From the NCBI RefSeq assembly GCF_964355755.1, contig NC_092674.1:5027001-5091000 (forward strand): a stretch of DNA of 64,000 nucleotides, written 5' to 3'. The stretch comes from Antedon mediterranea (lineage: Eukaryota; Echinodermata; Crinoidea; Comatulida; Antedonidae). Each line of letters starts with the position of its first letter. Position 1 is the stretch's first letter. The notes below the pieces were generated by a model, which was given only the letters and a program-made list of their open reading frames with translations, made no database searches and was not told where the DNA came from. The position numbers were made by a program, and so were the translations under genes. This document shows positions 1,896-28,800 of this stretch, piece after piece.

Positions 1896-4800
1896 GTAAT
1901 CAAACCCTTCCTCAGTAAATGAATGATTTATAAATATAAATGATGATATATACTGTAGTTTAATATTTAATTGTATGTAGCTTTATGTATATACTGTACC
2001 CTAATTAAGAACCCCTTCTGAAGCAAGTCTACAAGTTAAAAATACAGTACGTCCTTTTTAGTGAACTTTTAATTTAATTGTTTTTTAAATAATTTATATG
2101 TATTTTGTTACGACATAGCAATATATAAGGCAAATAAATAATTAAATAATAAACATTTATGAGCATTTATATTTGAATTTGAGACAAATATATGCTGTTT
2201 TAACACTTTTTAGTGTTTTATGCCATTTTACTGATTGAAATACTTAAACCTCAGCCTTCTGATGGATTTTTAGAAATCAATACTAATAATATGTTTTTAA
2301 TTGTTCTTTTTTCTTTTATAGATTCAGAACTTCCGATTACTCTTTATCAAAAACAAGAATCATCCACTAACTGGGAATGCCCTCCGCTTAAAGAATATAT
2401 TTCAAATGTATGCCCATCTGTCAAGCTAATTACATTTGAATGGCACGTGTATCCCACTACTTCACTCGTCTTTCTTCTATACATAACTGATCAGATTGGC
2501 TTATCAAAAATAGTGGACATGCATTCAAGTAAAGAGCTTCTCAGGAGTTTAGCAGGCATCATTGAACCACTTCATCAGCAAAAGTTTATAGATCAGTGGA
2601 ACACAAAGATTGAACCAGATTATGATGCTGCTTTGAAAAAACTACAGAAAAACGGTAAGCTTTTACCGTTTATGTACACATTAGGCCTACAAAATTTACC
2701 GTACACATTTTCTATGATGGCCACAAACATTAAGTTATTTCACCAGCTCACTTTTTGTAACGAGATTGTAAAGTTACTTATATGCAATTTTTTTTTGGTA
2801 AAAAATGTATACGATATGATAGGACTGTTTAGCTTTTTAATAACTGCCTGTCACACTTTGTAATGTCAAAAATGTAATATGTAGGTTTTGATAATTTTTA
2901 TTCCTTGTATACATGATTACATAGTTACCACCTGAGAGATGGGAGGCAGGGAATATAACCCTCCAATCACCTCCTCCTGTATGGTCTAGACAAATTTGGC
3001 ACTTTTAGACTATCTTGGAATGTTTATTAAAGAGTGTCTTTGAAATTGCAGCACTATTGATTTCCTCCCATCATTTTTTGTTCAACAAAATGTGATGATA
3101 TAACATATTTTTGCGAATTGTATTGTATACAGCAACAATGTGTGAGTGAATGATTGTTTTAGATAATTAGGAGACTCCCTCTAGGGGTCTTTTGTGATAG
3201 TGATGTTAAGTTTAAGTAATAATAACATGGTACACTGCTATGGTTAAACAAACAAATACAAAAATAAAGTAAAACATCATGCAAATTTGATTTTAGAAAC
3301 CAATTTATATTTCATTTAGTTATTGGTACATTTAAAATACTGTTCAGTAATAAACTTATTTATCAATTTACCTTGCAGTGGATGACCTGGAAGCATGTCA
3401 AGGTATCTATTGGCTTATATTTTTTTTAAAACAATTTACAATTAAGCAGATTGAGTACAATTTTTAATGGTAGATAGCTTATACCCAATTCACACGTACA
3501 ACAAAAATATAAGAAAATGTAATAAGGATACAAGGATATCTTACAGCTTATTTTTACATGTTAGATTGCCATCGTGTAATATAATGTAATTGCAGAGTAA
3601 AAAAGACCAAAAGGAAACCGTGTAACTATGGATTTTGCAGTGCAAACCCCATCACTATTATTTACTAACAATTACTAACAACTAACAATGGTATATCTTG
3701 ATTTCAATATTATTTTGGGAAAGTCCAATGTCAAGTAATATAATATTATAGTAATTTGTTAAATGTCACATTTTATCTTTTAAGGTGCTGAGTTGATGGT
3801 ACGTCTTAGTAAAAATCAAAGTTCAAATTGGATATGGCCTGAAAATTCATTCTTCGATGGAGTTTTAAGGTTTTTTGCTTATTTCAAGAATAAGTTTAAT
3901 TTATACATCACATCAGGCGAATCTGGATCGTTGGTGTTATATCTGGCTGCTTATGACTCTAAAGCATTGCAAGACCTTTGGAAGATGTATTCAAGTCAAA
4001 AGTTGCAAAGCGATTTAGCAACAATTGTAGTAGACAAATTCCAGCAACAAGAATTGATTGATGTTAAAATTCATTATAAGGATTTTAAAGTTGCTGTGAG
4101 AAAGTTAGAGGAAATCGGTAAGGCATTTGCAAAATTATTGTTGAAAAAAATAATGGTATGTAGGCCCTAAGTAAAAATTGAAACTAATATACCAAGATAT
4201 ACTGTAAGACATCATTTGTTCACATCCGAGCACTATAAATTTTGTCTTTTTTTTTACCCATTAAAGCTATTTCAAGTTGACAACTTCTATCATAAATTTC
4301 ACACGGACTACCCTACTCTACAGGCATTAAAGAGAAATAGGAAGGGTTAAAACAATTTTAGGAGGAGGGGTTTGCTAATAATAATAATATTATTATTATT
4401 ACTTTCATACTGTTATGTAAATGTACAATGGTAGTTACTATGAAAATCAAACTGTGAGTTTGGAATGACTCAACATTTTAATTATTCAACAGAGAAATTA
4501 GACCAAGCAAAAATAGCTTCTGAGGAATGCAGAAAGGAACCAGAATCACCTGAAAATGTTATAATAGAAAAAGGTGAGTCACTGCAGTTAAACAAGAATT
4601 TGTAAATTTTGAATAATAAAAGACATTAGGCCTACAAGTAATATGAGTGTATTTCAACTGATATGGATCTGGAAATTAATAAATAGGAAAGTAGCAATTG
4701 TTTACCCCTAAAATATATTGGTTTTTTTTCTCTTTCGTGGGGGTCACCCACATTTATTCATTCCTTTTACAAATATATATTATATAACATACATACATTT

Positions 4801-7800
4801 TTATAAAATAAAGAACAATAAAATCCAATATAACAGCTAAAAAGGCACTATATCTATACATGTACATAAAATCGATGGAGTAAAAGTATGCTTTAAAAAC
4901 GTACATTTTATGTTTATTGCAAGTTATAGTAAAAGTACGACTATTTATCATCTAAATTTACTTTATATTAAGAAATGTATTAAAAAGTAGCTGTTTCTTT
5001 TATTATATCTTAAATCAGTACTCACAATTTGTTTCTTTATTTCTTTTGACCTTATATTACATCCATTACAAATATATACACACATTAATATACCTATTTA
5101 CATTTACGAATCAGTTTAATATAGTTATTATAAACACATTATATGCTACTTTTTATGTTTTGGCCTTGTATAACATTTGTTTCATTCCACTATTTCTATT
5201 CCTTTAAAGTTCTTTTCTTACTATGTTGGCCCTTTACATTTACCAGTTTGTTTACTTATATGTTTGACCGTGTGTTTCAGTCTATGTTTTACCCTAATAC
5301 ATTTATTTCTATCATGTATTAGTTTTAGTATAAGTCTAGGTGTTTGTTAGTTTTACACTACAGCTTGTACTAGTTTTATATTTTTCTTATTTTATGAATT
5401 CTAATAATTTAATTTTAACATCATTCCATTTTATAACTGCTTTATACTGATTACATGCGTATTCATTTTATATAAGATTTTTTAATTCAAACTTAAACAT
5501 ATTCAAGATACTTTTTGATTCGTTACCCATCATGTTATCTAATAAACTAAGCCTTATGCGGGATTTGTATATACAAAACGTAAAGATAGATGTTAGCTCA
5601 TTTACAAGTTTATCTTTGGAACCAGTAACTATATCAAACCAATGTATTGGCGTTTCATTAGGAAAACATTCAACAATAAGCAATAAGAATATTGAATTTC
5701 CTCCAAACTGGCTTAATCACTTTACACTTAAGTAACATATGTTCTTCGTTTTCTATCACATTCTTACATCTATCGCAAATATTAGTTTTAGACAATTTCC
5801 AAATATGTAATCTTTTATTACAAACAAGTATGCGATGTAAAAGTTTAAAATTGAATTGCGCAACTTTTACCATATGTTTCATATCTTTGACTTTATTATT
5901 CCATATTTTGTTCCATACCATAGTCTTATTTAAAAACTCTGTTTCCCATTTTACTTGGGAGATTGGCACTGTCTTTAGTTCAAATATAAACTTATCATAA
6001 AAACCTGTTTAGTTTAGCTTTAACGAGTTCACAACTACATAAAAATCAATCATATTAACCCCTCCTTCTTCTATTTTATTTATAAGTGTTTTCCTCTTAA
6101 TCTTTTCTTTTTTATTTCCCCATAGGAATCTATACAGTAACTTCTCTACCATTGGAAATACATGTTTTGGTACATTGATAATACTAGCATTGTATATTAA
6201 TTTTGAAATTGCTAGACTTTTAATTATTATCATTTTTCCAAAGAAGGTAAGGTGTCGTTTTTCCCATAGTCTTAAAGTATGTTCTAACTCCATAATTTTA
6301 TCATCCCAGTTTTTTTTTTCACAAACACCTTTTTTATAGCCTACATAAATTCCCAGGAATTTCACTGGCTCTTTCGTCCAAGTGATACCACAAGGGGTTG
6401 CTAGGTTATTTTGAATTGATCCAATCCAGATTCCTTTACATTTTCCTTTATTTAGCTTCAACCCTGAAATATTACAAAATGCATTGATTTCAGTGACAAA
6501 ATATTTTAAACTATTTTCACCTGATGTAAAAATCACAGTGTCATCAGCGAGCTGAGCTATTTTCACAATAATATCAATATCTTTATTCTCAGGTAATTCA
6601 ATTCCCTTACACAATGGATTATTCATTGCCATTAACTCGACTACAACTGTAAATAATAGTGCAGACAATGGGCAACCTTGACGTACTCCACATTCCATAT
6701 TAAAACTGTTTGAAACCCATCCGTTATTTTTAACCATACATCTAGTGCCTGTGTATATTACATTTATCCAATGTACAAAAGATAAACCAAAACCAAACTT
6801 TCTTAGAACATTTAACATTAACTTTCTATCTATTGAGTCGAATGCCATAGCAAAGTCAAGAAAAATCATGGCTCCTGGTATTTGCTTTTCTTTCGTATAA
6901 GACAACACATCTTCAACTAGTCTAATATTTTCTCCTCCAAATCTCTCATTAATATATCCTTTTTGATCATTACTGATAATAGACCGTAATACTTTTTTTA
7001 GTCTGTTTGAAAGAGCATGTGCCATTATTTTGTAATCTACATTTAGCAATGTAATTGGTCTCCAGTTTTCGAGACACTCTCTCTTTCCACTCTTAAATAA
7101 AAGATTTATTACACCTAACCTCTGTGAGTTACTTAAACTATTATTGTTGTAACTGTAATTTAAAGAATTACACAAAATATCTTTTAGATATTCCCAAAAA
7201 TGACGATAGAATTCGACACTTAGTCCATCGGAACCCGGACTTTTATTCAACTTCATGTTAGATATTGCTTTTGTTAGTTCTCCTTCTGTTAATATTCCCT
7301 CACATTCTATTTTATCTTTTTCTGATAGTTTTTTAACTGTAGTATTTCGTAAATATTTATTTATTTCATTTTCTGTTAGAATTTTATTTGAATACAGATG
7401 TTCATAGAATCTAATTTGTTCCTCTAGTATCTCGTGAACATCCGTAGTATGTTTTCCATTCCTTTTTAAGAGCATGGTAATATGTTTTCTTTTTGCATTG
7501 TTTTTCTCCAATCCTAAAAAAAAATTGTTATTTCTTTCTCCCTTTTCAAACCATTTAACCCTTGCTCTGACTATGGCGCCTTTTGCTTCACAATGATAAA
7601 TCTTATCTAAGTCATTAGTTTTATTTTTTAATTTTTCTTCTATATTTTGATCGTATGCGATATTAAGTTTGTTCGTTAATACATTGACTTCCTTAGTTAG
7701 GTTTAGCTTATTAACATTCATCTCTTTTTTTTTACTTGCACAGAATTTAGCTGAAAATTCTTTTATTTTTATTTTAAGTAGTTCCCACAGCAAGTCTGGA

Positions 7801-10800
7801 GTAAGATTATTTTCATTTTTTTTTACATTTTTAATAATTCTTTTTATTTTTATGTTGTATTCTTCATCTTTAAGAATACTACAGTTAATTTTCCATATTC
7901 CTGGACCAACTTTTTGTTGATTATTTAATATTTTTAATGAGATAGCCTGATGATCAGAACATATTGATGGTCTAATGTCGGTAGACATCACATCACCATT
8001 TTTATAAAGGGCACTTGAGATGCACCACAGATCCAACCTCCTGTACGTGCTTTTTCGTCTCCAAGTAAATTGGGTTTTTGTTTTGTGATATTGTCTCCAT
8101 ATATCTATTAATTTATTTTTTGTCATGCAATTCTTTAACACAGATGGTGACTTGTCGTATTGATTTACACAATTTTTTTTGATCTAATTTTCTTTCTAAA
8201 ATGCAATTCATATCACCTCCAATTATTGTATATTCTTCTTTTTTAAAACACATCAATTCAATCTTTTTTTCTAATTTTTTGAAGAAGTTTGCCCTTTCTT
8301 TGTAATTATTAGGTGCATATACATTAATAAAATTAAACACCTTCTCATTATATCTTACTTTAAGAATAAGCATTCTACCTTCTTCTTCTGTATATTTACA
8401 TTCAATATCACTTTGATCAAATCCTGGCTTAAAAAATATTGATACACCTCTACTATTAGTTGTACCAAAACTATGAAACATGGCCCCATTCCACAACAAG
8501 TTGTTACATCTTATAGATTTCTGATCAAAGTGTGTTTCTTGGAGGAATGCAACTTCAATGTGTTGATCTTCCAGCCATTTAAATATTTTCTTCTTCTTAT
8601 AATTTTCTCTAATCCCTCTAACATTTAGCGATATTAGATGTAGGGAGTCATTTTTTGTTTTGTTTTTCATAATTATTTTTTGTTCGTTTTTTTTTTGTTT
8701 TTGTTTTTTCTAATTCAATAATTATATCAAATTTACAGTTGAAGCGAGAACAACGTATTTTAACTTACTGAATCAGATTTTCTATCTTTCTTTTCAACAT
8801 TTTTCTCTCCACTTTCAGTAAGCTTTTTCCTTTTGCTAGATGCAAACTGGTCTCTAGCAACTATTGCTTTGGTATTAGAGGCATCCGTTGTGCTAGTAGT
8901 TGCGAAATCTGTAATTGGTCTCATACCCATGTTTATACTACTTGCTCTCTCACCAGCTTTATTTGTCTGCTCAACATTGCTTGCTTTTTTTTTATCTCGT
9001 TTTCTTTGCTTCTTCTTTTCATTCATTGAGTGGAGCTGTGGCTTGGTGGTTATGATGCTTGGCTACCAATCTAAGGGTCCTGGGTTCAAGTCCTGTCATA
9101 TGTCAGCGTTTTTTCTCATGACAATTTACAACTCCACTCCCAAAGACTTAATAATAAGTCTTTGTTTATGTAGAGCATCTTGTGTATTTGTTTGTCTTGT
9201 GAAATTTTAAATAGTTTATCCATCCTGTAATTGGCGGGTTACTCGCTGTTGGATGAGTATGAAATAAAAAAAAAAAAAAAAAAAAATTCTTTTGGTCTTG
9301 TTGTTGCATTTTTTCATTATCTTTCTGATTTATCGTTTTCACTCTGTCTATGGCTTCCTTCATTATTTGCTGTACCTTTTCATCTAATTCTATAGATTCG
9401 GGCTTATTTGTTGGCATAACTGGTTTGTTAAGCAGTTCTTCTAGAACTACTATGACGTTGCTTGTTGCTTCATCTTGTTTATTCTCTTCTTCAATGATGT
9501 CTAATATCTTTTCTTCCTCTTCTTCATCTTCCTCTTCTATGTCTACTTTCTCTTCCTCTTCTACATTTATTAATGTTTCCTCTTCTATATCCACTTGCAC
9601 TTCCTCTCCCATTCCTACTTCTATTTATTTTACTTCGTGCGGGTATTCTTCCTCATTGTCAATCCACTTAGTGATATTTGTTGCAAGCTTTGGTAATGTA
9701 TTTGTCGAGTTTATAACAAATTTGTGTGGTAGGCCTACATATTTATCACCTTTACAGTTTTTAGCAAAGTGGCCTGACATATTGCATTTGTGACATATTA
9801 TACTGTCCATCTTTTTCGGGCATTCATTAATTTTATGTCCAGTTACAATATATTGTTATTAATTAATTATAAATTAATTCTTATAAAAAAATAATTTATT
9901 TATTCTTTTTTCTATTTTAATATACTTTACTTTGTACTATTTATGATACACATCAATAATTATTTGTCTAGTAATCTCTTCCCTTTTTACAAAATTTATT
10001 TAAAATTTGACCTAAAATTGTCTAAATTAACCACTGAAGCTTTTAAATTATATTTTGTACAAGTTTAATTTTTAAAAAGAGTGAGGACTATAGCTTGTTA
10101 TAGATTTTATGTAACGATTACGTTGCATAAATATTTTTATGTTATTTTTTTTATATTTTATGCAAGCAAATGTATTATTAGGTCTAAAATATTGTTTATA
10201 AAACGTATACATTAATCTGATAAACTGGTACTAAGAAATTGTCAGTCTTCTGATTTTATGTGAACTGAAAAATAATAAATGGCCCGGGGACAAAAATAAA
10301 TATGTACCAGTGCTGTTGTTAAGTCTAACAAATTACCAAACCAACCAAAACATTACCAAACAGTCTGAATTATTTTTCATATGTTAATTTTGTTTACCCA
10401 GCAGATGTAGCTTTTTCTGATATTGGACACGACACACTAACCACTGATAAGGATCCAGAGAGTGTTGGATCAATAAATGGTGAGTTATTTTATTCATAAT
10501 CTCAAATATTAATGATAATCTAAACAGTTTAGTGATACAGCAGTTTGAGTTAAAGTTATTGATGTTCACAGGTTGTCAAATGCCAGCACATACAAATAAT
10601 TATCATTTATTGTGTCCCTGGAAAAGAACAAAAACTATTTACTTAAATTGTTTGGTAAATGCATTACTTTTTTCATTTAATGGTTTCTGTTTATTGCTTT
10701 ATTTTATTTTATCTCCTCTGTATTAAGTCAACCATGGTTTTTCCAATTTTAAATTGTATTAATTTATTTATATTCAAACTTAAACAGATTTAATGTTATG

Positions 10801-13800
10801 ATTATTTTGTTACCTATTAAACAGAGAAAAAGTATAATGTGCAAATGGAGACCAAAATAAATGAAATTTATGGCATGGTCACCAGTAAATAAGAGTCACA
10901 AAGAGCAATGGTTACAGTTAAATAAAACTGGGGATAAGCATCAAATATAACAAAAAAGAAAAAAGAAAGAATACAAGCAAAATGTAAGACTTACCTGAGT
11001 AAAAAACCAGCTTAAACATTCTTTGTTTTTTTTTTATTTTGTTTTTTTTTTTATTTCTAGAAGATGCAGCTATTTTTGTTACAGATCTGAAAAGTGTTGG
11101 ATCGAAAAGTGGTGAGTTCTTGTATGCTGATAAAACTTCATGTGTATGTAATCCTGGAGGAAATTGAGATCCAATTGATACACTTGATAATCCATTAGTC
11201 ATTATGTGCATGTTCTTTATTCATGTGTACATCTGTAGCAAAACAAAAAAACTAAGTAAAATTTGATAAATGTCTAGTGAAAGTTTGATTTTTTGTATAT
11301 GACTAAATATTTATTGATTTTCAAAGATGATTTCACAGCCATGTATAATTGAAAAACATAAATACTTTTGAATACATAAAATTATATTATTAAAATGAAA
11401 AGGTTCAAATATATGAGTTGCTGTGTTTAGGAGAGTGACTCTAACCTCATTAACTTAAAATTGATAGGAATACTATACTATTGTTCATATCTCCAAATCT
11501 AGCTTCCTCTGAAAGTGGAAGGTTCACCCTCTCTGTTATGGACCAAAGTGTTGGATCAAAAAGTGGTAAGTTCTTTAATTACCTTTGAAAATAGGACTTG
11601 AGAACTACCTCATTTGTTCCTTCGATGTCATGAATGCAAACTCTACAGAGGCAGATCCAACGGTATAGGCCTAGTTAATATTAATATCAGGGCGGATGCA
11701 GGGGTCTTTCCCCAGTTGCCACTAAATTTAATTTAGATCCTATTTCATCATAATACTGTATAAAAACTATTAACGTTATAGAAGTCCAGGGTTTGAAGAG
11801 CCTATGTAAAGCCTGTTTTCTTGTCGACGTTATTCGACGCTATCGTCGTTGATCGTTAACAGTTCAACGAGGATCAAGTTGAAATGATGACAATAGCGAG
11901 TACCTTTTCCTGTAAATCGTTAACATTTCAATGTTTATGTAGATGATCGCCGATTATTGCGATTGCGATAGCGTCGACTAACGTCGACAGGAAAACAGGC
12001 TTAAATTGACAAACTGCAGCGTCAAATCAACCAGCAGTCAACAATACCGGGCACAATTTACCGGCGGTCAGCTTAATTTTTTGTGTGGATATTGGATATG
12101 TTTCTAAACATGCTCAGAATAACTGTTTGGATTGCTTGTGTGCCTCATGAAAAGGTACGAAATGCCACTACACACTGTATTTGTGGTAAACCCCATCATA
12201 TTGGTCATTGATTTGTCCATCATCATTGTGTTTTGCCGGGAATTCCCCATCATTTAAGTACGGTATCTCTATAGTCTTATAGACTTTTCTTCATTTCATA
12301 TCCGTAATATTGGGCCCAATTTTTTGTTGTATTTACGGTCGTTCCGAACTTTGAAATAACAGTGTTTAATTCAGTCCAAAATACGCAGAATTTTTTCCAA
12401 AATACGTCAACTTGAGGGCGCTATACTAATCCAAAATACGTGAGTCTTTCCAAAATACGTCAACTTTAGGGCGCTATTCATTTTCCATACGCGAATTGTC
12501 CAAATACGTCAAATTGAGGGTGCTATTCATTATCCAAAATACACAATTTGTCCAAAATACGTCAACTTGAGGACTCTATTAATTATTATCCAACTATTAT
12601 CCGCTATCAATCCAAACTACGCAGAATTTTTCCAAAATACGCCAACTTGAAGGCGCTATACTAATTCAAAATATGCGAGTCTTTCCAAAATACGTCAACT
12701 TGAGGGCGCTATTCAATTTCCTAAATACGCAATTTCTCCAAAATAATTTTTGGGGCACTTGTTTCAAAATACTTGAACTTGAGGCCACTATTAATTTTCT
12801 AAAGTACGAACATTATCCACATATTGTAGTTCTATTAATTTTCTACAATAAGAAAGTTAACAATAATGGTTTTTTAGTCGCGTGGAAGCGACTCTATAGT
12901 TCACTATGTCGGTCGGTCGGTCTGTCGGTCCGGTATCACTATGCATTGTAGCACGCGACTTAATGGCTGTTGGCCTTGTTAATTATTATTATTACTTTTC
13001 ATCAAGATTTAAGATGATATTATAGTTTGAGGATCATATACTGTTACATTTAGATCTCTCTCACTCAACCAAACAATTTTAAACTGTAACTATGGGTATT
13101 TTTCCGACATTTTCGTGTAAAAAAATAATTACTTTACTTCTTCTAACCAATTATTGATATTATTTTAATTACAATACCATAGTCTTACAGTTATATGAAA
13201 TAACTATTATGGTAGATTTCAAATTAGGTAACTTGTATTAGACCATAAGAAAAAAAATTCTGCCTTCCAATAATTTGGAATGTAATTTAATTTAACTAAA
13301 ATGTATTTGTTTGTTTTACTCGAAGAAACTTTTTTTAATACATTAAACTGTAATTTTAACTTACACTCTCAATATATTAATGATACTTTGGAAATCCTCT
13401 TGTATTTTGGAAAAAGTTTGCTGTCCTCAAGTTGACGTATTTTGGAAAATTACTAGCGCTCCCAAATTGATGTATTTTTGACAAATCGCGTATTTTTTAA
13501 AATGAATAGTGCCCTCAATTTGACGTATTTTGGACAATTCGCGTATTTTGGACTGATGTTCACCAACTCGACTCTGTTTAATTGCCTCTTTCTGCAAATT
13601 TCTATCATATTTTCTTTTCTGAAGTGTAGTTTAACACTGTTGTACAGTTTATACTGGATAAATGAAAATGAATTTTGGAAATTGTGGTCTAACTGACTTA
13701 TTTATCAAAATAATACAATTTTTTCTCAATATATTTATAGCAGCAGCTTCATATTTTTGTCTAACTTTTTTTATTAATTGATAATAATTAATTGTATTGA

Positions 13801-16800
13801 TTATAATTGCCAGAATTTATTAGCTTACCGGAAGTACCTTTGTCGGGGACTTCCTCTGACGTTTGCATTGAACGCACAAAACCATATTACTTGCATGTTT
13901 TACTGGCGGAAAATACTAGGTGGGATACGATGGTATTGTTGTTCCGGTAGCCCAATATAGAGTGTCATTTACGGCGAGCTAGAGGTGTTATTTATGAATT
14001 TTACGTGCGAGGGTACCATTTCCGGCCATCTAGGGGTGTCATTTAACAAAATCAGTATCGACGGCCCTGGACTTAATAAATAGAGTACACTATAATAACT
14101 ATGGTAACATGTACTGTAATTTACAATATAGCAACCATTACATACTCAACTGTATCAATATCTATTTATTGATATATTTATTTTCCTCAACAAATTTTAA
14201 TGTAATAAATATTGAGCCAGATAATTAAGTGGCGGACGCCAGATAACAGCTTTTAAAATATTTTTAACTTGTGGCCCAAACGGGCTTCTGTAAGCTATAA
14301 TAAGCATTGAATTTGATTTTCCACCGAAAGTGCGCTTTTTTCGGACTTCCCCTAGACGTACGCCCACTCAACGTAATCAAAACAAAATTCCCTTCGCAAC
14401 AAGTCTTGATAGCCCTGGGCAAGCACTCTTTTCTTCCATGTGCAAACGCTGACTTGCGCAATGTGCTATGTGGTGATGCTTTTACTCAAAATAGGCCTTT
14501 GGAGGAAATGTCACCTTTTTATACGCTAAGTACCTCAGTTTTCATTTTTAACACATCAATTGTTAATACATTTATATAACGTGAGAGTGCCATTTCCGAC
14601 CATCTATTAAATTAATATTATTATCATCATCCGTCTGATGACAAATAATTAATTAAGATCCCATATCATAGTTAATTCTCATTAAATCAATTCATAAATA
14701 TTAAGTGTATTCCACATGAATGCCAACATTGTGTTTTATTGTAAATCAAATACTTTGTCTGAAATACATGATTAGAAACCAAAATCACATTGATGTATTA
14801 ATTAGATCCGATTTTATGCACATTTTAGAAAAAAAATGAGGCCATTTCAGAAAATTATTAAAATGTATCTGAATGTATAAATATAATGGATTCTCTGACC
14901 GAGATCATTCATCTAGCTTTATTAATCTCACTTTTTTTGTTGCACTTTTAAATAAATTTGACAGCCATTTTCGCAAATGACTAACTAAAAATTAACATCA
15001 TATTTATTATATCTATAAATTAATTCCTTTTCTAAAGTACACTTACCGTTATAGAAACTTTTTAACTATTTTGTGTAGGCCTGTAATTTTGAAACAGAAC
15101 TCAATATAATCGACAATAAATGTGTATACTGTAGGTCTATACCATGTCACTATTAGAGACAATAAGCTGCCAGGGCATACTCTGTAAACTGAAGTGCCAA
15201 TAGGGCATTATGTCTGAAGTACATGCAAGTTCGTGCATCTATCTTATTTATTTATTATGCACATTTTATATTAAATTGGTGGCCATTTTGGAATCTTGGC
15301 ACTAGAAGCGGTCTTTCATAAGAGAATTAAATATCATTGCTCTTCAAAGAAAGAGGATAAATATAATCAAGTTGGCTGTCTTTTCTCCTGACCATTTGTG
15401 TGTATTTAGCATTTTTCTTATTTTCTTCGACAATTCTACCTGTTCTGTCCTCGATATTGTTTGTTCTAGATGATATTTGTTTTCCTTTCACAATTGATTA
15501 TCGCACCAAAAGTGGATACATCACAGAAGAAAAATGAAAAAATCAATATGCCTGTTATGTATGTCAGTATTTATAGCAGGCCACTTAAATATGACTGAAA
15601 AAGTGTATATATAAGTTATTTTATAAACAATTTAAAATTTACAAGCACACCCTAGTGTTTAATGTAAAAGTCATAATTAAACAGTTTTATGTGATTTTTA
15701 TTAGCTGCACAAACATACTCCGACACGACTGATTTTGAACAAGAAATAACATCTGTTGAAGGTAGGTAAAAATACCAATATGTCAATTTACATGAAAATA
15801 ATGATAGTTATATAGTCTCGGAGTATTTTTTACTGTCGTTGTAAACGCCATGGGCTATGGCGTGGTTGAGTTACAGGTAAAGGAGTATGGTTAAACCAAT
15901 AAATATAATCCAAAATCATCTACTATCGAATCTTTATATTTCTATAATAATTACGTTTTCCTGCCGATAAATCAATGTATATTTAATTTGTATTTTACTA
16001 TATGCAATCGAATCTTATATTTTATTATTATTTACATACTATCGAATCAAATCTTATTGCATTACATTATAAATATACGTTATAACTATTTAATATAATA
16101 GTATTATTATTTAAATACTATCGAATATTATACAGTTTTACATTAATAATTATGTACGGTATTGCCGAATCTTTATATCTCATTTACATACTATGGAATC
16201 TTATACATTATTATATTAATAATTATGTACCCTACGGTATTCCGAATCTTTATATCTCATTTACATACTGTGGAATCTCTATACAGTATTGCATTAATAA
16301 TTTACGTACGGTATGGCCGAACATTTATATCTCATTTTCATGGAATGATATATAAAATAGATGGAGTAGATATAGTTCATAAAGTTCCTCATAGTAGCAT
16401 TACATCTTATTACATTTCTATTTCGGTCTCTGACCCATGGCGTGGTTGTTTTTAGTCGCGTGGAAGCGACTCTATAGTTCACTATGTCGGTCTGTCGGTC
16501 CGGTATCGCTATGCGTTTTATCGCTTTCTGACCTTATCTTGATATCAGTTTAATCTAGCTAGGTCAATTTTTCACAGTATATTCCTTATGGCCAGGAATC
16601 AATGTGGTTATGTTTTCACCGTGCGCAATAAAAAATTACGCGGTCTACGCACGATTTAACGAAATCACGTTTGTAATCATATCTTCACAACCATGAATCA
16701 CAAAAAAATAAATAAAATTTGGTACTCATAAATTTCAGGGCATAAATCATCATATGGCAATACAATTACGTGCGTAGCGCATGTAACGCATGCGTACGCG

Positions 16801-19800
16801 CGCTTAAAATTTTAAAAATTTATTTTCGATGAAATAAGAGTACGTTTCAGGCAATTTTAAGCGTTTACAAAATTGCCATGAGTGCGCATATTTTTGCGCG
16901 CGCACTGCGCGTTAAATGTTATTTCGCACTATTTTTGCCCGATTTCTGTTTTCTTGACTTACTTTTCAACTCGAAATTACGTTATACGAGCACGTCAAAA
17001 GTGACAGGCTACGCACGTGTAAATTAAAAAAATATAAATGTTTTTAAACATTTCAACATTTTTAAACATGTTCAGTAATTTCGGTCAGTATAGTTCACTA
17101 TGTCGGTCGGTCGGTCTGTCTGTCGGTCTGTCTGTCGGTCCGGTATCACTATGCATTGTAGCACGCGACTTAATGGCTGTTGGCCTTGTTATTAGTAGTA
17201 ATTCCTAATTCCTTTTTACATTTACGTGTTATTCCATTGTATGGTAATACATTGTTTGTGTTTTCAATAAAGCAACGTGGGACGAATACGCAGAGGAACG
17301 CGCACAGTTAGAGCACTATGCTGGCCGGCACCCGAGTTTTTAACAGAAATTCACGTATAATAATTACTGTACTGTACAGATACTTGCATCTATTTAGTTA
17401 TTAAAACTCATTTTAAATTGTTTTAATTTCATAAATATTATATATCTGAAAGGATATTAAATAAATCAATTGCTGTCATTATGTTATTTTAAGGGGGCAT
17501 TCCACAATATTTTTAGTTGTGTGCAAACCCGAATCTACAGCTCACTACAGTATGTCGGTCGATCGTTCGGTATACTAATTCAAATTTGCGCACGCGACTG
17601 CAGCCATGTATATGGTCTTTTTATGAGAATGTAACTAGACATAACTATCACAATAACAATCACCGCTGAAAACAATTGTTTGACAACCATTATTGAAAGT
17701 TCAATGTAATTTGTTTTAACAGGTTCAATAAGCTTCTATGCAGGTCGTAAACGAGAACTTAAAGAAAAACTTGCTGAAACTCAACGTGAGTCATCATCAT
17801 TTAGAAACGAATTATTATTAAAACAACTAACGAACTATATTTGGCATAAAAAATGGTTCATTACTATTGCAATTGGTGATAAGTTTACCTTAAAGGTCAG
17901 AATTGTCATTTCCGGTAATTTTTTACTAAATTGTCCTATTAGACTGAATATGAGTGTACATCTTCTGATGAATTTGAGACCCAATTTACCTCGCTGTGAC
18001 CAGTGGTTGTCGAGATTTAAGGACTTATTGGTGTTTGGTCTTATAACCTTTCACCCTGACCTTTTGCCACATTTTCAAAATGTGTAACCAAGCCAAAAAT
18101 GATTGTTTGACCACCCTAAACAAATTCTAAGTCAAATTCTCTGGACCTGAAAGTGCATACAAAGGTAGATCTAGCTACTAATGTACAGTAAATAAGAAAT
18201 CGTACAATTTGTAAATAATACATTTTTTTTTTATTAGGACTTTATGAAAATCGTAAGCAAAATCAAGAAGAAGAACTTTCTGAAACAGAAGGTGAGTTAT
18301 AATACATAATACACTAATTATTTTAACGCACTTAAGTAACCTTGATATTTGGTTGATTGATTTGTTGTGTGCATTTTTTTTGGTACACATTTACTTGCTT
18401 GCTCTCGCATTTAATTCTGAACTAGAGATAGATGCCATGTTTATGGCCAGATGAAAGGGGCTACCCTGTACATTTATAGCTGTTGTGTTAATTAATAAAA
18501 GATGGAAGGTGTTAGCAAAATGACCAGGTAGACTTACTTTGGCTACATGCAGAGTTTGTTGAAGGCATAGTGAAGAGATTTCAATGTACTGGTACAGTAT
18601 ATGAACTGTTTTGATGTTGCACATACTTTTGTGTTATGTTCCTGTGCTTGGAGGATGACTGTTGTTGATGAAGGATTCTGGTGGTGAGAGGATACATTAC
18701 CCATATATAATATGTGGAATGCATCCTCTTACTTACTGATGTTGATGTTGGATGTTGTTTAATACTAATAGTGCATATCTGTTTGTCTGACAGCTTAGTT
18801 TTATCACCTATGAACTTATCTTGAAGAAAAACATAAATTATAAAACTTGTCCTAAATATTAAAAACCTAACCCTCTAAATAATCTCTCTCAAACTAAAGA
18901 AAATAGTTAAAAAACTGTCAAGTAGAGAAGCATCCTGCAAACCCCCTGGGCCATAACCGCAATACAAGTTCATTGAGCCATCCAGCTCACCGATCCAGTG
19001 GGGTTTTACTTTGTATATGAATTAATAAAACATACGTAAGCATTTTAACCGACAAATCAGAACAGTGTTGACATCTCTTTTTGTAAGTCCTATCCATCAT
19101 TTTATACATGATCATTTTGAACTTTGTTTGAGTGACATTTCCAAGTATCCCAATGGTTTCGAAGACGTTGCTTCCGAAGACATGTCGAACCCTAACTCCA
19201 CATCATTATAGTTTATCAATATTCAAACACATTTAAAATTGTTTCTTAGGGTAATACTGTGTTTATTTATTTATTAAACTTTATTTCTGATTTCTCCATA
19301 TACAATACATATCTCCTAAAACGCTAATCGTCGTTAGACATTGCGCGTCTCACTTGTGTTCGCCACTCAGTACGTTTTTGAGCAAGCATGTGTATAGGTC
19401 CGCGTGTGAAAAGTTCTGTTTCCTCTTTTATGTTTGCCATCCATGTTGTTTTTGGTCTTCCTTTTGGTTTTTTGGTCTTTCTCTGAGCCTCTCCGAGTGC
19501 GATCTTAGCTGGTGTGTTTTCATTTAAACGGAGCAGGTGACCATACCATGTCAGCCTTCTTTTCTTTACGTTCTTACTCCACTCAATTTCTCCTGTTCTT
19601 TTGTACAAATCTTCATTTTTTATTTTCTCCGGCCACCTTATACCTATTATTCTCTTTAGGAATTTTCTTTGAAAGACATCAATTTCGCTTTTTAGTGATG
19701 CTGTCATTGTCCACATTTCACAATTATACAGAAAGATGCTTGTAATGTATACGTTGAAGACTCTCATTTTCAGGTTTATTGTTAATTTTCTATTTTGGAG

Positions 19801-22800
19801 TATTTTATTTATCTTGCTGAAAGCTGCTAATGCGAGACGTTTTCTGTTATTAACATCCTCTCTGGTTCCCAATTTACTTCCAAGGAATTTGCAGTTTCGC
19901 CAGTCTTCATTTCCTTTCCTTTTTATTTTAAAATCTTCGGTTTTTGACGGGTTAACTTTTAGATTATAGTCTTGTAGATACCGTGGAATGTCTGTATTTA
20001 TTTCATTTATATATTCTTGTGAGGTAGATACAAAAGATATGTCATCTGCATATTGAATGTTTAATGTAAATTCAGGTGTATATTGTTTTTGTTGACGTTG
20101 CTCTTGTTCATATTTTTGTAGGATATGTGCTAGATATGTAATGAAAAGGATGGGACTAAGACAGTCTCCCTGTGGTACTCCTATGTTTGATTTAATTGGG
20201 TCGCCTATTTCCTTTCCAATCCTTACTCTAAGATCTACTTGTTCTATGAGGATTTTGATAATATTTAGCTCTTCTGGTTCAAGGATGTGAGATATTATAT
20301 CAATTAATTTTTTCCTGTCTACAGTATCAAAAGCACTGCTCATGTCTAACATGAGTACATTTATTTCGTAGTCTGATGATGTGATTGCTTTTTCTGCTAG
20401 TGTTCGGAGAGTAAACACATGTTCAGTGACACTCCTTCCTTTACAGTATGCTGCCTGTGAGGGTGGTATAATGGTCCTAAGCTTATCATCAATTCTATTT
20501 ATAAGGCAAATGGCCAAAATTTTTCTAATGATATTTAGGAGGACAACTGGTCTAAGGTTCTTTACGATACCCTTTTGTTTGCCTGGTTTATGTAATGGAA
20601 CTATGATACCTTCTGTGATATCATGGGGCGCCTTTCCTGTCATAACCATATCATTAAACATAGTTGCAATACTACTGAAAATGTTGTCATGTGCATATAA
20701 TAAATATAAAAATATAAAAAGTAAGCAAAACATTCAAACTATAAAAATATCATATGAAATAATGGGCACAGCACGAAAAACCAAGGTGCTCAAATGCTCA
20801 AGTACTTCATTCATGTGACATAAACCCTTGATCCAAACATACTAGATTGTACAACAACCTGTACGAGACAATTGTTACTAATTGTAACTCTATTTATGAA
20901 TCCATAACACGTTTTTCTATAATATATAATATAATATATATAGAAAGATGGAACATTACTTGTTACAAACATCTGACTAGCACTACAGTACACTATAGTG
21001 CAAGACCCATACATTTTCTGAAGGCATTATTATACCACACCTGCAACTTCCTAATATTAACCTCAGTGAATTTTAGACCATAGACTACTACAATACATAG
21101 TGCTACAATAAGATTTAAACAGATTACAATTAACCTCATTGGAGCATTTGTTAAATTTGCGGCATAACAAATTAGCAGGGTGTCACGAAAACTAAGACCA
21201 CGAAAGCTAAGACCCCCTAAGACCTAAGATCACGAAAGCTAAGACCCAACACCTAAGATTACAAATATTTATCTTTCGCACCTGCCTTGTATTTTAACTC
21301 CCAACATTTATTCTGAATACCACACCTTAGAATTGGCACTTTCATGAAAAAGAATCACATAAAAAGTAACAAATACATTTTTAAATTGATGATTTTACAG
21401 ACGTTTTTCTCGCACACAAAATGACTAGCCTACAGTACAGTAGGCCTACCCCATGTTCAATGTTTTTGTTTCTATGGAACGTCAAAAGAGCAACAATTAT
21501 ATAGAGGGCTGAAAACTCTGTGGAGTCCATCTACAGTGTGGATGGAACAATGTAAAATTAAAATTGTAATGATAATAGTATAATCATGCAAGTACGAAGA
21601 AATAAATACTGGCATTTAAAAATCATGATAAGTTTTTTTGTTTTGTTTTCTTTCTGTTTTTATACTTGTACTATTATTGTTGCTCTTTTGGCGCTCCATA
21701 GAAACAAAAACATCGAGGAGTTACATTACAGTATACAAAGAAACACATCTGTAAAATCATCAGGATTTATTTATTTGTTATTATGTGTTTCTCCTTCTGA
21801 AAGTACTTATAAGTCCTAATTTTAAAGTGTGGTGTTCAGGATAAAGTTAGTCAACAAATTTGGAGTCAAAGTACAAGAAAGGCAGGTGCGTAAGAAAAAC
21901 ATCCTCTGAACCAACACAATGGAGTAAATATATACCAACAAACAACCCGTCAAGTTTGTTTGTTGTAAAGAAAAAATATACATTTACTCAACGGGCGAAA
22001 ATAATGTGAGTTTATCTATGTTTTGCGGTAGTATTAAATTATATTTATGGTAATAAATGAAACCTACTGTGTTTAAAATTATGTATGGATAAACAAGTAT
22101 TGTTTTTAAGCTGTAGTATATCTTAGTATTTGTAATCTTAGGTGTTGGGTCTTAGCTTTCGTGATCTTAGGTCTTAGGGGGTCTTAGCTTTCGTGGTCTT
22201 AGGTTTCGTGACACCCCAAATTAGCACGTATGCAAGGTGAGTGAGTGGCTGAGCGGTTAAGACAGTGGAACCGTAATTACGTAGCCATAACATCGGCAGA
22301 GGTTCGAGGCTTACTCACTCCATGTTTCTGATGGTAGAACGAGTCTTCTCGGATAAGGACTATAAACTGTAGGTCCAGTGTACACATCTAGCTCATGTGC
22401 ACTTTAAAGAACCTAGTACTGTACATCTTTCGAGACGAGTAGGGGGTTACCCCGGTGTATTAGTACATCACAGCTACTGATCATCAACTGGACCATCTGG
22501 GAGACCAGTCTTTGACTGAAGAGGTTACCCAGTATAAATATTTCAATCAATCAATCAAGTGGATATCTGTACTGACGTCTGATATCATGAGCATCATTTA
22601 AATCATAGGATAAAATATGACCAAGGTACTTTACTGTAGTTTCAGCAACAAAATTAAACTCATTGCTACTACCAGGATGCTACATAATATTATGTGTTCT
22701 GTCTCTAATCTTTTGTGGTGAAAAGACCATACATAAAGACTTTTTTGGAATTGAATATATCATGCTTCATAGTATCATATGATTCACAGATACTGAGTAT

Positions 22801-25800
22801 CAGCATTAAGATCATCATATACACGTTATATAACGATATGCCCATTGCCTCACACCATTGTAAACTGAAAATCATTTAGATAGTTTATTGCCCCACTTAA
22901 CACTGAATTTTTGTATCCAATACCACGATGCAAGTAACTTAACAATAATTAATGGAATATTTCTCTCAATAAAGCTTCCTAAAAGGTGTCCAATGATTCA
23001 CTCTATCGAGAGAAGGGTTGATGAGTAAATTGCTGAAGATCCAACACCATCAAAATCATTATGGATGCTCTTTAGCAGCCGAAGCGCTTCATTAAGTAGC
23101 CATGTCTTTGCAGGAAAATTAAATCATTATGAAATTCTTCATTTACTGGCAAATTGTTTATGATTTTTCTCAATAATAACTATATTTACAAGCTTTAAAA
23201 TTCTATTGTCATTTAAATATTAATAGGTGGTTCAAACTTAATTGTTTAAATTAAATATTTCTTATACTTTTGGAATAAACGACCTGGTCTATACAGTGAT
23301 CTTTAAAATAGCAATGAAGAATGAACGGCTTGAACTGGTTGTTCAAATTATACGAATTAGAAGTATCGTTGATGTTTTCATTCATTATCTTGCTGTAATA
23401 TTACTAACAATAAACACAATAGCAAAGACAAAATCATATATAAAATCAAGTTGAACATAGATATACAAACTAGAGATAGTTAAAAATTATAGATATAGTA
23501 TTATTGAGACAAATCATGAACAATTTGAGGGAATAAGTGTTAAATTAAGCGTTTTATAGAAACAGTACTTAATATAGGGCCCTTTAAAAATACTATTCAG
23601 TCATTGAGTTGTGTAAATAAAACTTGTTTGAATAACAATAAAATATAATGATGTATGGGAAAATGTCTGGGGGAAATTTCGTAGGGGGCTATGGTCCGGT
23701 GTCCAGGGGGGGAAATACAGGGGGGGGGGGAATATTCGGGGAAAATGTCCTAGAACCAATTTCACAACACTAGGTGCTTTATAAATCCAGGATATTATTG
23801 TTATTATTATTTATGTTTGAAACATGGTAAAAATAATGTTTTTATAGTAGCTGGACTATATACAAATATAAAGTCTTGAAAACCTAGCCTTTGATATTTA
23901 AGAAAAAAGTGGGTTAGGTGTTAATTGTACATTATTCACAAGCCTACACCGGGGACATGAAATAGGACAAAATTATGCACAACACATGATATGAAATCAA
24001 TCAAATGCCAATAATACACTTATTATAAAATGTGTTATTAAAACAGAAGTACAATTAAAGTGTATTCATCACATGTATCGCATGTTAAAATACAATAAAA
24101 GATAAATAATGAAATAATCAAAAAGAAGCTAAAAAAAGCTTGTAAAAAACTTGATACAATTTTATTTTATGTCTTTTATAGTTTTACTAAGGCACTATGA
24201 ATCGCTTAAAGAAAAACTTAAAGAGATTAAAAATAAAGGTAAGTTTAACACATTCAAAAGTAGCATTAGCATTTACAAAAATATTTATAAAAATTCTAAC
24301 TGTATTTGATTTCTTTTGATATGTGTAGGAGACCCTGAAATGCAGAAGAAAGAGCTACTTTTGTCAACTGAAGGTAGGTTTTGGAAACAATTACATATAC
24401 AACTAGAGGCCACTCAATCTCAGTTCAACATAAACATTTCCTTTTTTTTGTTATAGTTTTACAATGAATGTTAAGTTCAACAGAGTTGTGAAGCAAACTG
24501 TGACCGGTAGAAAATGAAATGATAATATTGTAAATAGTTTTTGTGGATTGTGACCACCTTTGACCCTACCACAAAATTCAACTACTGTTAGACGATGGAT
24601 AACAAGGCCATATACATGGCTGCAGTTGCATGCTCTCAAATTTGAGTTAGAGTGTGATTAAACATTTAATTTGGACAAATTTTGGGTGACAGATTATTGT
24701 GACTAAGTTTTGAATAAGTAAAGATAGGAAAAAAAAAGTATTTAAAAAATAAATATTTTGGAAGTTCCAAGAAATATGCTGTGTTTGACTTTTTTGGAAA
24801 GGTTTAGGAGGCCATGAAATACAGAAAGAAGAAATACTACTTGTTTCAACTGAAGGTAAGATTTAAAAAAAATTATATTAATAGTTCTAAAACCAGAGAA
24901 ATAAAGAATTTTAAACAAAAAAAAAAACCTCACCTCGCTCTGTGTAATAATATAATGTTTACACAACGTGCACACCAAAAATCATAATGCATACTGTGAA
25001 TAACGAAACAGGTCAATAAATTGAAATGTGTAAGAAGTGTAGAAGAATTACAATTTATAAGATTGTTGTAATATGATGCTAAATTTGGTTTTGGCTAGCT
25101 AAAGGAGACCATGAGAAACAAAAAGAAGAACTACATCTTTCAAAAGAAGGTGGGTTTAAACATAAATTATTTTATCGTACTGCAACATTTTATTGTGTCT
25201 GATCATTATCATAGCACACAATAATCATGATGTATGCTTATTTTGGAAATGGGCTGATGCTATCAAAATCATTTCCTTTCAACTGTCTCAAATATGTACC
25301 TTATCTGTCTCACACAGGATACAAACTGTAGTATAGTCACTGAGATTTTTTTCTCTATTTTTTAATGAGGATTTTAAAGACAATATCTTCCCCCTTCTTA
25401 CATGCCCTCTCATAATAATACTACTAATTATAAGAAGCAATTATTTATTAATTTCATAGGTGAACTTCTAAAAAATTATGAAAACTTTAAAGAGGAATTT
25501 CAAAAAAACTTTTATTCAAGTAAAGACCGTAAGTTTGTTAAACTAGCATTTGAAGCTTTAATAAGGGTGTCTAGAAAACTCAGATCTAGAAAACTCAGAT
25601 CTCAGATATATCTGAGTTTTCTAGACACCCAAGAATTTGTCATCTATTTGTTTGTGACAAAATTATGAATACAGTAACTTTGTTGCTTAATGGTCTGCAA
25701 ACATTTCCTATAAAAAAGATACTTTACATTCTGTGGTGCTAATGCATTTTTTTATTATAATGTTTAGGGCTAATGTTCTATCATTATTACATTACAATAA

Positions 25801-28800
25801 ACTATTTTGTAATTATAATTAGACAAACAACATAGCCATACATACGGTGACCATTGATTGAATTTTGAATTGATTTTTTATTCTAGTTATTTGTACTATT
25901 TCTTTTTTACAGAACAAATAGAAACGTATCTACTTAATAGACACCAGTGGCACAACATCAACAAATTTACACCAGAAATTTGTAATCCTGATTATGTAGT
26001 TGATGTAAATGATGTTTTCAGTGATTTGGAATTCTGGGAAAAGAAAAGAAACGAGCCTATAATGTTAGATGGTATGTTAAATGTTATCAAATCCAAACCA
26101 GCATGTAAAGTTCTTATAGAGAGTGAGATGGGTACTGGTAAAACGACTTTATTAAGGTACTTAGCATACAATGCCAAGGAGACCATTAAAGCCCTTGAAG
26201 GTAAAATCGTATTCCTTTTGAATGCAAGGGAGTTAGATACAAATGAGGGAATCTTAGATTTGATGGTAAAGCAACTGAAAATGAAAGATTTCAGTTCAAA
26301 GACCAATCTTCCACCTGATTCAAATTTGATTAAACGATTCATAGTAAATCATGTGGATAAAGTTGTGTTGATGTTAGACGGCTTTGAGGAATTAAGGTTT
26401 AAGAATACAAGCTTAATTACAATGTTGATAAAAGAAAACCTAGAGAAGAGCATTGTGATACTTACATCAAGGTCGGAGAACCTTGATGAATTCATAAAAG
26501 TGAGTGATATACATGTAAGAGTTGCTGGATTTAGTGAAGATTCCATAGGAAAGTATGTTGACAAACACTTTGCGTATTTTGGTAAACGAGAATTGGGAAA
26601 TTCCCTTAGAAAGGAATTGGGTATTGGCAAACAAGTTTTGAATCGTAAACACCCCAAAATGTTTTCATTGTGTAACAATCCCATGTTTCTTCTCACAGTT
26701 TGTATTTTGTGGGAAGATATGCGAAGTCTTCCTCATAATAATGCTGACATTGCTAAAGTATTATTTATTAATATTTTGAATCAGTTTAGAAAAGAGAACC
26801 CAAACATCTCTCAATTTCAGGAAATTCCATTGGAATATGAAAATTCTATGATTTTGTTAGGGAAAAGTATGTTTAACAGCTTAAAAGTAAACCACCTTTC
26901 AATAAGGAAAAAAGACCTTAACGCAATAGCAAACAAGGATATTGTTGACTTGGCTTTGAAACTTGGATTTGTTTATAGAGATGCACCAATTGGAAAATCT
27001 AACTTTGAAGTGATTTACATGCCTCTTCATAAATTAATAGGGGAGTCATTGGTAGGGTTTTACTTGTGCAAATTATGTGAAGCAGAAAGTGTGGAGTGCA
27101 CAAAGGATACACGAGAATTACTTACCCAATTGAGTGATGATGACTGGCAGATGATAAGAGAAAGTGAGCATTTAGAGAGGGCAAAACAGTTTGCAATTAA
27201 TTTCCTTGGTGGTGATGCGGATAAATTATTGAAGCATTGGATTACAGATAATATAACATATCAGGACCAATTTTTCCGCAGTTTTTATACGACTGTGTCA
27301 GCCAACTGCAAAGGACGAGTTCTTGCCCACATTTTAGGCCTTGCTAATGTGGTTAACTTTGACATGCATAATTCCAATCTAACAGGTGATATAATGAATG
27401 AAACGATTAGAGAGTGCTCTTATAGAGGATTTGAGTTGACAGTACATGCTCTAAATATTAGTGATAATTACTTTAGTGACATTGATGGTGTTTTACTAGG
27501 TAAGTTTTTGAGTATATCGCCTAACCTGATTAAACTTGGCATGCATGATTGTCAACTATTAGGTAATGTAATGAATGAAATGATGAGAGTGCATGCAAGA
27601 GATGAGTTAGAATTACAAGATCTTGATATTGCAAATAATGATATCAGTGACATAGATGGTACTTTACTTAGTACTTTCTTGAGGAAGTGTCCTAAGATGG
27701 TTAAACTTTACATTTCTAATTGCAAACTATCAGGTAATGTAATGAATGACATGATGAGAGTGCATGCAGTAGATGAGGTAGAATTACAAGAGCTTAATAT
27801 TAGGAATAATGATATAAGTGACATAGATGGTACTTTACTAGGTACTTTCTTGAATAAGTGTCCTAAGCTGGTTAAACTTTACATGTCTAATTGCAAACTG
27901 TCAGGTTATGTGATGAATGAAATGATGAGAGTGCATGCAAGAGATAAGTTAGAATTACAAGAGCTTAGTATTGGGAATAATAATATCAGTGACATAGATG
28001 GTACTTTACTAGGTACTTTCTTGAGTAAGTGTCCTAAGCTGGTTAAACTTCTCATGTATAATTGCAAACTATCAGGTAGCGTAATGAATGAAATGATGAG
28101 AGTGCATGCAAGAGATGAGTTAGAATTACAAGAGCTTAGTATTGGGAATAATAATATCAGTGACATAGATGGTACTTTACTCGGTACTTTCTTTAGTAAG
28201 TGTCTTACGCTGGTTAAACTTCTCATGTATAATTGCAAACTATCAGGTAATGTAATGAATGAAATGATGAGAGTACATGCAAGAGATAAGTTAGAATTAC
28301 AAGAGCTTGATATTGCAAATAATAATATCAGTGACATAGATGGTGCTTTACTAGGTACTTTCTTGAGTAAGTGTCCTAAGCTGGTTAAACTTTACATGTC
28401 AAATTGCAAACTGTCAGGTAATGTAATGAATGACATGATGAGAGTGCATGCAAGAGATAAGTTAGAATTACAAGAGCTTAGTATTGGGAATAATAATATC
28501 AGTGACATAGATGGTGCTTTACTAGGTACTTACTTGAGTAAGTGTCCTAAGCTGGTTAAACTTGGCATGTATAATTGCAAACTATCAGGTAATGTAATGA
28601 TTGAAATGATGAGAGCACATGCAAGAGATGAGTTAGAATTACAAGAGCTTTATATTTGGAATAATGATATCAGTGACATAGATGGTGCTTTACTAGGTAC
28701 TTTCTTGAGTAAGTGTTCTAAGCTGGTTAAACTTTACATGTCCAATTGCAAACTATCAGGTAATGTAATGAATGACGTGATAAGAGTGCATGCAAGAGAT

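Follow-up and report, generated by a model that had tools for sequence, protein, structure and literature searches.

Small exons of uniform phase, arranged in arrays, have been described in several gene families, and the accounts given here follow the excerpts of the papers cited. In the zebrafish NLR-C group (NLR-B30.2) of nucleotide-binding leucine-rich repeat (NLR) receptors, short peptide repeats of two main types lie upstream of the NACHT domain, each encoded by its own exon, with a variable number of repeats and exon shuffling between groups (PMC4852459, PMC11192531). Chicken BG genes encode membrane proteins, and the genes named in that paper have 27–37 tail exons of 21 nt (a few of 18 or 24 nt), encoding heptads; alternative splicing takes the form of intron read-through, and selection on variation in the repeat part is reported (PMC5938342). 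Schistosome micro-exon genes contain exons of 6–36 bp that form about 80% of the coding region (PMC5825161). In brown-algal ROCO genes each 72-bp phase 2 exon encodes one leucine-rich repeat (LRR), and variant transcripts are reported (PMC11378527), while human NLRP3 has uniform LRR exon modules that permit alternative splicing (PMC6642158). Here we describe an array of tiny phase 1 exons in an NLR gene of the crinoid Antedon mediterranea (assembly GCF_964355755.1, contig NC_092674.1, positions 5,027,001 to 5,091,000). The whole 64,000-nucleotide stretch is referred to as the window, and positions are numbered from its first base.

The array appears to be of an already known kind, and its anatomy resembles those of zebrafish NLR and chicken BG genes. 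As in the excerpts on zebrafish NLR-C, one short repeated peptide is encoded per exon before NACHT, in variable number, within an expanded NLR family; death-fold domains occur in part of the zebrafish family, a possible likeness to the DED-like N-terminus of the window gene. The zebrafish units, however, have about 30 residues, whereas those of window exons E5–E16 have 15–27 residues and fall into several families, and the zebrafish proteins carry a FISNA extension and often B30.2. The N-terminus of the window gene is DED-like, with TRADD-N-like exons. Like BG, as far as it is described in the source excerpt, the window gene has many tiny phase 1 exons, with a codon split into one base and two, an exon number that depends on the gene, and charged units, which in BG are helical. 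Its exons are nevertheless irregular (45–81 nt), with no 21-nt heptads, and the protein is an NLR. A Pfam search with 1371 residues, from E1 into the LRRs, listed 13 families at E up to 1, with FISNA absent. The window gene was therefore filed in neither the NLR-C nor the BG class, because there was no FISNA match and no heptad register.

Runs of short symmetric exons that could be joined in many subsets are shared with schistosome micro-exon genes, but in the window gene the tiny exons are about 15% of the coding sequence (738 of 4,842 nt), against about 80%. Equal-phase tandem exons, shuffled between copies in candidate immune receptors, are shared with brown-algal ROCO; there the array is the recognition part, whereas the window array is a predicted linker. 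Uniform modules within an NLR are shared with NLRP3, being LRR exons in that gene and linker exons in the window. A literature search of titles and abstract openings found no such array described in an invertebrate NLR, which is not proof of absence.

Our preferred reading, to which we give a probability of about three in four, is that the array encodes a variable linker and consists of symmetric phase 1-1 exons that were multiplied in tandem within a small NLR subfamily. The ancestral plan would have consisted of a DED exon, zero to three tiny phase 1 exons and a NACHT exon, with tandem amplification of symmetric phase 1-1 exons following within the subfamily. In our view, linkers between a signalling domain and a NACHT switch have received little attention in NLR evolution. 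One subfamily would have turned its linker into an exon array able to gain units, lose them and probably recombine at no cost to the frame, a further case alongside zebrafish NLR repeats and chicken BG tails.

The exon chain of the window gene

The gene model was rebuilt from splice sites on the forward strand, and 17 exons were joined into one open frame from position 1352 to the stop at 28806. All 16 introns are in phase 1. The first coding exon, E1 (1352–1895), encodes a DED-like double domain and ends in phase 1. It is followed by E2 (2322–2654) and the homologous E4 (3785–4117), both 333 nt long and phase 1-1; E2 has no Pfam match of its own, and E4 matches a TRADD-like N-terminal domain at 0.037, below cut-off. 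Between them lies E3 (3379–3402), a 24-nt exon with weak splice sites and the least supported of the chain. Its 39-nt counterpart in a related fragment, locus E, was spotted by eye from position, frame and splice sites. The array proper is formed by 12 tiny exons, E5–E16, before the NACHT-LRR exon E17 (25913–28806), which runs to an in-frame stop. NACHT was matched in Pfam at 7.4e-16, above cut-off, and the C-terminal LRRs by LRR_4 at 8.1e-18 and by 171-nt repeats.

The support for the tiny exons differs from exon to exon beyond the splice model itself. E5 (4493–4573, 81 nt) has a 78-nt counterpart in locus E. Three exons of a type named for its SVGS motif follow: E6 (10405–10479, 75 nt), with a second in-frame acceptor that would move its start to 10402 and a similar exon in sister gene C; E7 (11061–11111, 51 nt), backed by sister genes, the scan described below and locus E; and E8 (11503–11565, 63 nt), with a weak acceptor, identical in locus E. 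E9 (15705–15761, 57 nt) is supported by sister genes and scan. The others are rich in lysine and glutamate (K/E-rich). Sister genes, scan and pairwise scores agree for E10 (17723–17785, 63 nt; partner E11), E11 (18238–18291, 54 nt; partner E10), E12 (24182–24238, 57 nt; partner E16), E13 (24329–24373, 45 nt) and E15 (25099–25149, 51 nt), the last two in a set with E14. E14 (24808–24855) has 48 nt, or 54 nt with the acceptor at 24802, as sister gene A2 suggests. E16 (25460–25528, 69 nt; partner E12) is the last tiny exon before NACHT.

An earlier note on this DNA had claimed at least 13 tiny phase 1 exons of 24–81 nt, all multiples of three, in an NLR gene and placed between its death-fold part and its NACHT. 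The rebuilt chain agrees, counting E3 with E5–E16, since all 13 lengths are divisible by three; the coordinates were right, and so were the NLR identity and the position of the run, the N-terminal part being DED-like. The statement that any subset could be joined without losing frame also held, as all exons are symmetric and 136 of 136 ordered joins of any two among the 17 exons contained no stop codon. This last result is almost automatic, because no exon ends in T.

Positions 4200–25900 were scanned at thresholds of 12, 15 and 18 for open stretches of 24–150 nt in nine phase combinations; three sister genes supplied the 27 tiny exons behind the splice matrices. Eleven phase 1-1 candidates were found at every threshold. 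At threshold 15 they were E5–E7 and E9–E16, that is 11 of the 12 exons of the array, and nothing else; E8 was missed because its acceptor scores under the limit, and E6 and E14 were recovered with their alternative acceptors (10402 and 24802). The remaining eight phase classes gave 11 candidates, 7 of which overlapped the same exons in another frame. On the reverse strand phase 1-1 was empty, and the other classes gave 3 candidates at threshold 15, 3 at 18 and 6 at 12. The scan is partly non-independent, because the sister exons were picked by homology to the window and with window matrices, and the codon score was derived from the window's NACHT exon and introns.

Open AG...GT stretches could in principle have been taken for exons, as short open stretches with splice-like ends are common and a control region of 20 kb further along the window gave 3, 1 and 4 phase 1-1 candidates at the three thresholds. 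The concentration of candidates in a single phase class, with none of that class on the reverse strand, and the counterparts in sister genes make such a chance origin extremely improbable. The sister genes speak against chance for E6–E16, and least so for E3; for E5, no match exceeding shuffles was found in A2, A1 or C. These results confirm the predicted tiny-exon array as well supported.

Sister genes and the origin of the array

The genome searched comprised 354 Mb in 18 contigs. It holds at least 103 NACHT matches, by a model that also matches 11 of 14 prokaryote controls (3 above cut-off), and at least 150 matches to the DED exon, E1. The closest NACHT relatives of the window gene, which lies on contig C5, are found on contig C4: A2 (C4:31.72 Mb, 91%), A1 (C4:31.69 Mb, 66%), C (C4:14.65 Mb, minus strand, 65%) and a broken copy B (C4:32.05 Mb, 95%). 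A2 contains four SVGS exons and counterparts of each of E9–E16, 12 tiny exons in all. A1 contains one SVGS exon, a doubled E9-E10-E12 block and the E13 and E16 types, giving 10 tiny exons if one supported by splice signals alone is counted; the doubled block is also visible in DNA as two stretches (68% and 72%). C contains one SVGS exon, the E9, E10 and E12 types and one splice-signal-only exon, making five. Assignment of E9 in A1 and C, and of E13 in A1, relied on the scan and on visual inspection.

Locus E (C4:32.08 Mb, minus strand) is a fragment with E1, E2, E4 and three SVGS exons, one of them reading SVES. Its counterparts of E3 and E5 differ in length from those of the window and are still multiples of three. 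E8 is identical there over 64 nt, in surrounding DNA that is 87% identical. The number of SVGS-type exons is therefore three in the window, four, one and one in A2, A1 and C, and three in locus E. A genome-wide search for the SVGS exon end with its donor, by a pattern that misses C and the SVES exon, hit 10 places, which lie in A1, A2, E and the window (reversed control 0). A DNA search with the E7–E8 stretch gave 7 matches, confined to the window, A2 and locus E. A DNA search with 24100–25600 gave 56 matches, of which 5 were the window, B and A2 and 51 lay on two short dispersed repeats.

Across the sister genes, exons of one kind thus keep their order and differ in number. Its idea of an adjustable linker holds between loci, in view of the SVGS counts and the doubled block of A1. 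The sister loci establish that predicted linkers are diverse between genes, and that the predicted exons were gained and lost by tandem duplication and changed length in frame.

The earlier note had further described two duplicated families, an SVGS type and a K/E-rich type. The first stands: it is weak in protein, where z-scores against shuffles for E6/E7/E8 (2.1–3.5) are hardly above those for E7/E9 (2.1–2.2), and clear in DNA, as a 34-nt repeat with 82–85% identity. The SVGS exons of A2 belong to a two-exon unit that has been duplicated, as seen in stretches of 145 nt (85% identical) and 137 nt (80%). The single K/E family does not stand, as three sets were found instead in pairwise comparison against shuffles: E10/E11 (z 6.4–6.5), E12/E16 (3.9–4.2) and E13/E14/E15 (4.2–7.0). 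E5 and E9 have no clear partner exon.

The gaps between DED and NACHT matches were also read at 26 other loci, a subset of those with both matches about 10 kb apart or less on one strand. Each gap contained 0–3 phase 1-1 candidates, 24 in total. The first 20 gaps, at threshold 12, gave 21 phase 1-1 candidates, some of which fall in the end of the DED exon, and 16 in other phase classes. The remaining 6 gaps gave 3, at threshold 15. The same scan at threshold 15 gave 10 candidates in the window. The contrast is one of number per gene and not of density, because the window gap is longer (21.7 kb versus 1.1–9.3 kb elsewhere). A further relative, D (C5:20.0 Mb), had no phase 1-1 candidate in the 16 kb upstream of NACHT. 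One compact gene, L026, has three candidates, two of them alike at 45 nt (DPGTSKQTKRSSPE and EPWASIQTKISSPE), which indicates that tiny-exon duplication extends beyond the window subfamily. Overall, the array seems to have arisen by local amplification of a gene plan shared across the family. A uniform symmetric phase would be expected here, because repeated frame-keeping duplication of exons leaves it, so that no splicing argument is needed.

The stretch C4:32.05–32.14 Mb contains scattered broken pieces highly similar to the window gene: the NACHT copy B (95–98%), which is split, together with fragment E and a copy of E1 that carries two stops (89%). These pieces suggest a recent duplication common to this part of C4 and the window gene on C5.

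The predicted linker, its change and its splicing

The window gene's N-terminal domains are weakly matched. In the E1 family, Pfam DED was matched in 3 of 4 members, all below cut-off (best 0.00021, window 0.0021), and the unrelated GcvP2_C reached 0.00014 in one member. A PDB search with these four sequences gave 7 matches at E ≤ 1, none of them a death-fold: six were acyl carrier proteins and the seventh was an ADP-ribosyltransferase. The best reached 0.089, and all were judged to be chance. In the E2/E4 family of six sequences, TRADD-like_N was matched in three, below cut-off (best 0.0012), with three other Pfam families in one member each, and there was no PDB sequence match at E up to 1; TRADD-N domains are treated elsewhere (PMC8195603). 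Runs of matches to the DED exon, with no NACHT match among those listed, occur at C4:16.0–19.7, C3:19.9–25.8 and C10:20.2–20.4 Mb, hinting at a large DED family outside NLRs.

The linker encoded by E5–E16 would be about 240 residues long, with a charged K/E-rich part coming after an acidic SVGS part rich in serine. E5–E8 are acidic with 17% serine, and E9–E16 have 34% K plus E and a net charge of −10. Such a linker may tether the death-fold/TRADD-N-like signalling end to the NACHT switch and set the reach and spacing of signalling domains in an assembled oligomer. Support for a coiled-coil linker is marginal at best by the periodicity and heptad scores given below, and the unit lengths do not preserve a heptad register. 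The units of E9–E16 have 15–23 residues, and skipping one would shift any continuous coiled-coil register, because 7 of the 8 are not multiples of seven.

Differences between the window gene and A2 were counted over aligned codons of E9–E16. One-to-one pairing is unclear for E5–E8, so that the pairs computed for E7 and E8 did not enter the count and E5 and E6 stayed unpaired. In 142 codons there were 33 differing positions (16 transitions), producing 2 synonymous and 27 non-synonymous codon differences. Neutral simulations gave 5.9–8.0 synonymous differences, with P = 0.054, 0.023, 0.011 and 0.005 for transition biases of 1–4; the observed transition ratio is close to 2. In the NACHT exon 17 synonymous and 47 non-synonymous differences were found, with 15.4 synonymous in simulation (Fisher's test of E9–E16 versus NACHT, 0.049). 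In aligned DNA around the exons, 11.7% of aligned bases differ. The non-synonymous (dN) and synonymous (dS) rates for E9–E16 were 0.093 and 0.037 against A2; they were 0.29 and 0.47 against A1 (77 codons, a small sample, using the second of its two copies) and 0.31 and 0.56 against C (56 codons, likewise small). Seen in one gene pair and by a borderline test, this excess may reflect either selection favouring amino-acid change or a splicing constraint on synonymous sites, and little weight is placed on it here.

The two ends of the gene differ in their distance from A2. The E1 proteins are 42% identical and the NACHT parts 90%. DNA of the window gene was compared with its sisters over up to 60 matches per locus, with those starting at 4600–10300 and 27400–30000 set aside; among the matches listed against A2, intron 5 excluded, one short match lies upstream of the SVGS exons, in E4 (70%). 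Exchange of the N-terminal module between loci is strongly suggested, because E1 and NACHT identities are so unequal and the uniform phase would allow a swap, which would then be harmless to the frame. Unequal rates are the alternative.

Several observations weigh against amplification of a frame-keeping linker array in a working gene. With 2 synonymous and 27 non-synonymous differences, purifying selection is not seen in E9–E16 at the depth of A2. Hydrophobic periodicity in the linker gave P = 0.31 at 3.6 residues and 0.097 at 3.5, and the best heptad score P = 0.058. Chance may account for part of the 24 candidates found over about 99 kb in the 26 gaps, given 1–4 in the 20-kb control, so that the family-wide plan rests on an upper bound. 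Alignment scores for E3 were 25, 26, 21 and 24 in A1, A2, C and E, below shuffle maxima of 42, 29, 35 and 30 (100 shuffles). Finally, the window gene could be decaying, because its LRR part is frame-broken: the 171-nt repeats run on beyond the stop at 28806 in another frame to about 29.8 kb (extra copies at 28807–29816, forward strand, out of frame with E17), and their spacing is 29 nt short near 28804 and 2 nt short near 29516.

These frame breaks bear on a reading in which the array was functional in an ancestor and forms a constant chain in a window copy that is becoming a pseudogene, like B and E. The damage in its relatives points the same way, with a stop in E16 and a split NACHT in B; in locus E the frame changes within E1, E4 carries a stop, and the 20 kb read gave no NACHT match. 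Yet in the window the reading frame stays open through E1–E16 and the NACHT part of E17, and 9 of 15 copies of a short LRR repeat motif (family D7) begin before the stop. We regard decay as rather unlikely. If a constant chain were true, the array would serve as a lesson that exon duplication alone yields symmetric exons.

Splice-site strength favours routine inclusion of most tiny exons, with a few skippable. The U1 pairing energies of the donors of 10 of the 12 exons E5–E16 (−9.1 to −11.9) are stronger than those of the long exons E1, E2 and E4 (−6.6 to −8.7). The weak donors are those of E10 (−5.8), E16 (−5.7) and E3 (−5.8), and the E8 acceptor is the weakest. Under the preferred reading of a tandemly amplified linker, most transcripts would include most exons, occasional in-frame skipping is likely, and linker variation would be tuned between genes and not by combinatorial splicing within one.

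Combinatorial splicing, the role put forward in the earlier note, would instead let one locus produce many linker isoforms, whose diversity tunes or individualises receptor signalling. The symmetry of all exons with their open joins, the second in-frame acceptors of E6 and E14, the excess of amino-acid change in E9–E16 relative to A2, and the splice variants of schistosome micro-exon genes (PMC5825161) and brown-algal ROCO (PMC11378527), as excerpted, all speak for it. But symmetric phase alone is no argument for alternative splicing, because exon duplication leaves such symmetry; 10 of the 12 donors are strong, the unit lengths are irregular, and chicken BG, the closest exon-array parallel, shows in its source excerpt intron read-through and not exon choice. 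Nor was a retrocopy recording a spliced form found. A search with joined E5–E16 plus 120 nt of E17 gave 33 matches, and none of the 13 candidates scored was a retrocopy, extending at most 4 bases past an exon. In a protein search with E9 to the start of E17, none of 12 matches joined two exons (5 in the window gene, 2 in B, 2 in A2, 1 in C and 2 at other NACHT loci, C4:20.30 Mb and C7:10.71 Mb); some ran past the exon border into adjoining genomic DNA. Combinatorial splicing is thus rather improbable. Its fullest version, in which a single locus skips or includes a dozen phase 1 exons to tune assembly or signalling range per cell, with the linker and not the LRRs diversified and amino-acid change favoured, is slightly less probable still. 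The array makes it possible to test whether selection in innate receptors acts on the length and charge of the linker as well as on the LRRs, and whether such arrays are spliced combinatorially.

Other features of the window

Introns 5 and 11 contain open frames (6009–8709 and 19324–20733, minus) that, judged by eye, read as reverse transcriptase and endonuclease of long interspersed nuclear elements and would partly explain the length of these introns. An element of about 1.04 kb at 21178–22216 has 90-nt inverted ends that are 99% complementary and resembles a non-autonomous DNA transposon; a 93% identical copy lies between A1 and A2. A dispersed repeat with a GTCGGTCGG core occurs in introns 8 and 9 (12871–12996, 16449–16500 and 17065–17206).

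Downstream, the start of a neighbouring gene on the forward strand (33166–35710) was read by eye as apparently encoding a coiled-coil protein. A low-complexity, TTTTCTTCC-like tandem array of 1.8 kb at 56267–58065 is open in three frames. Tandem arrays of 21-nt units lie at 32657–32968 and 40514–40728, and one of 85-nt units at 54435–54837.

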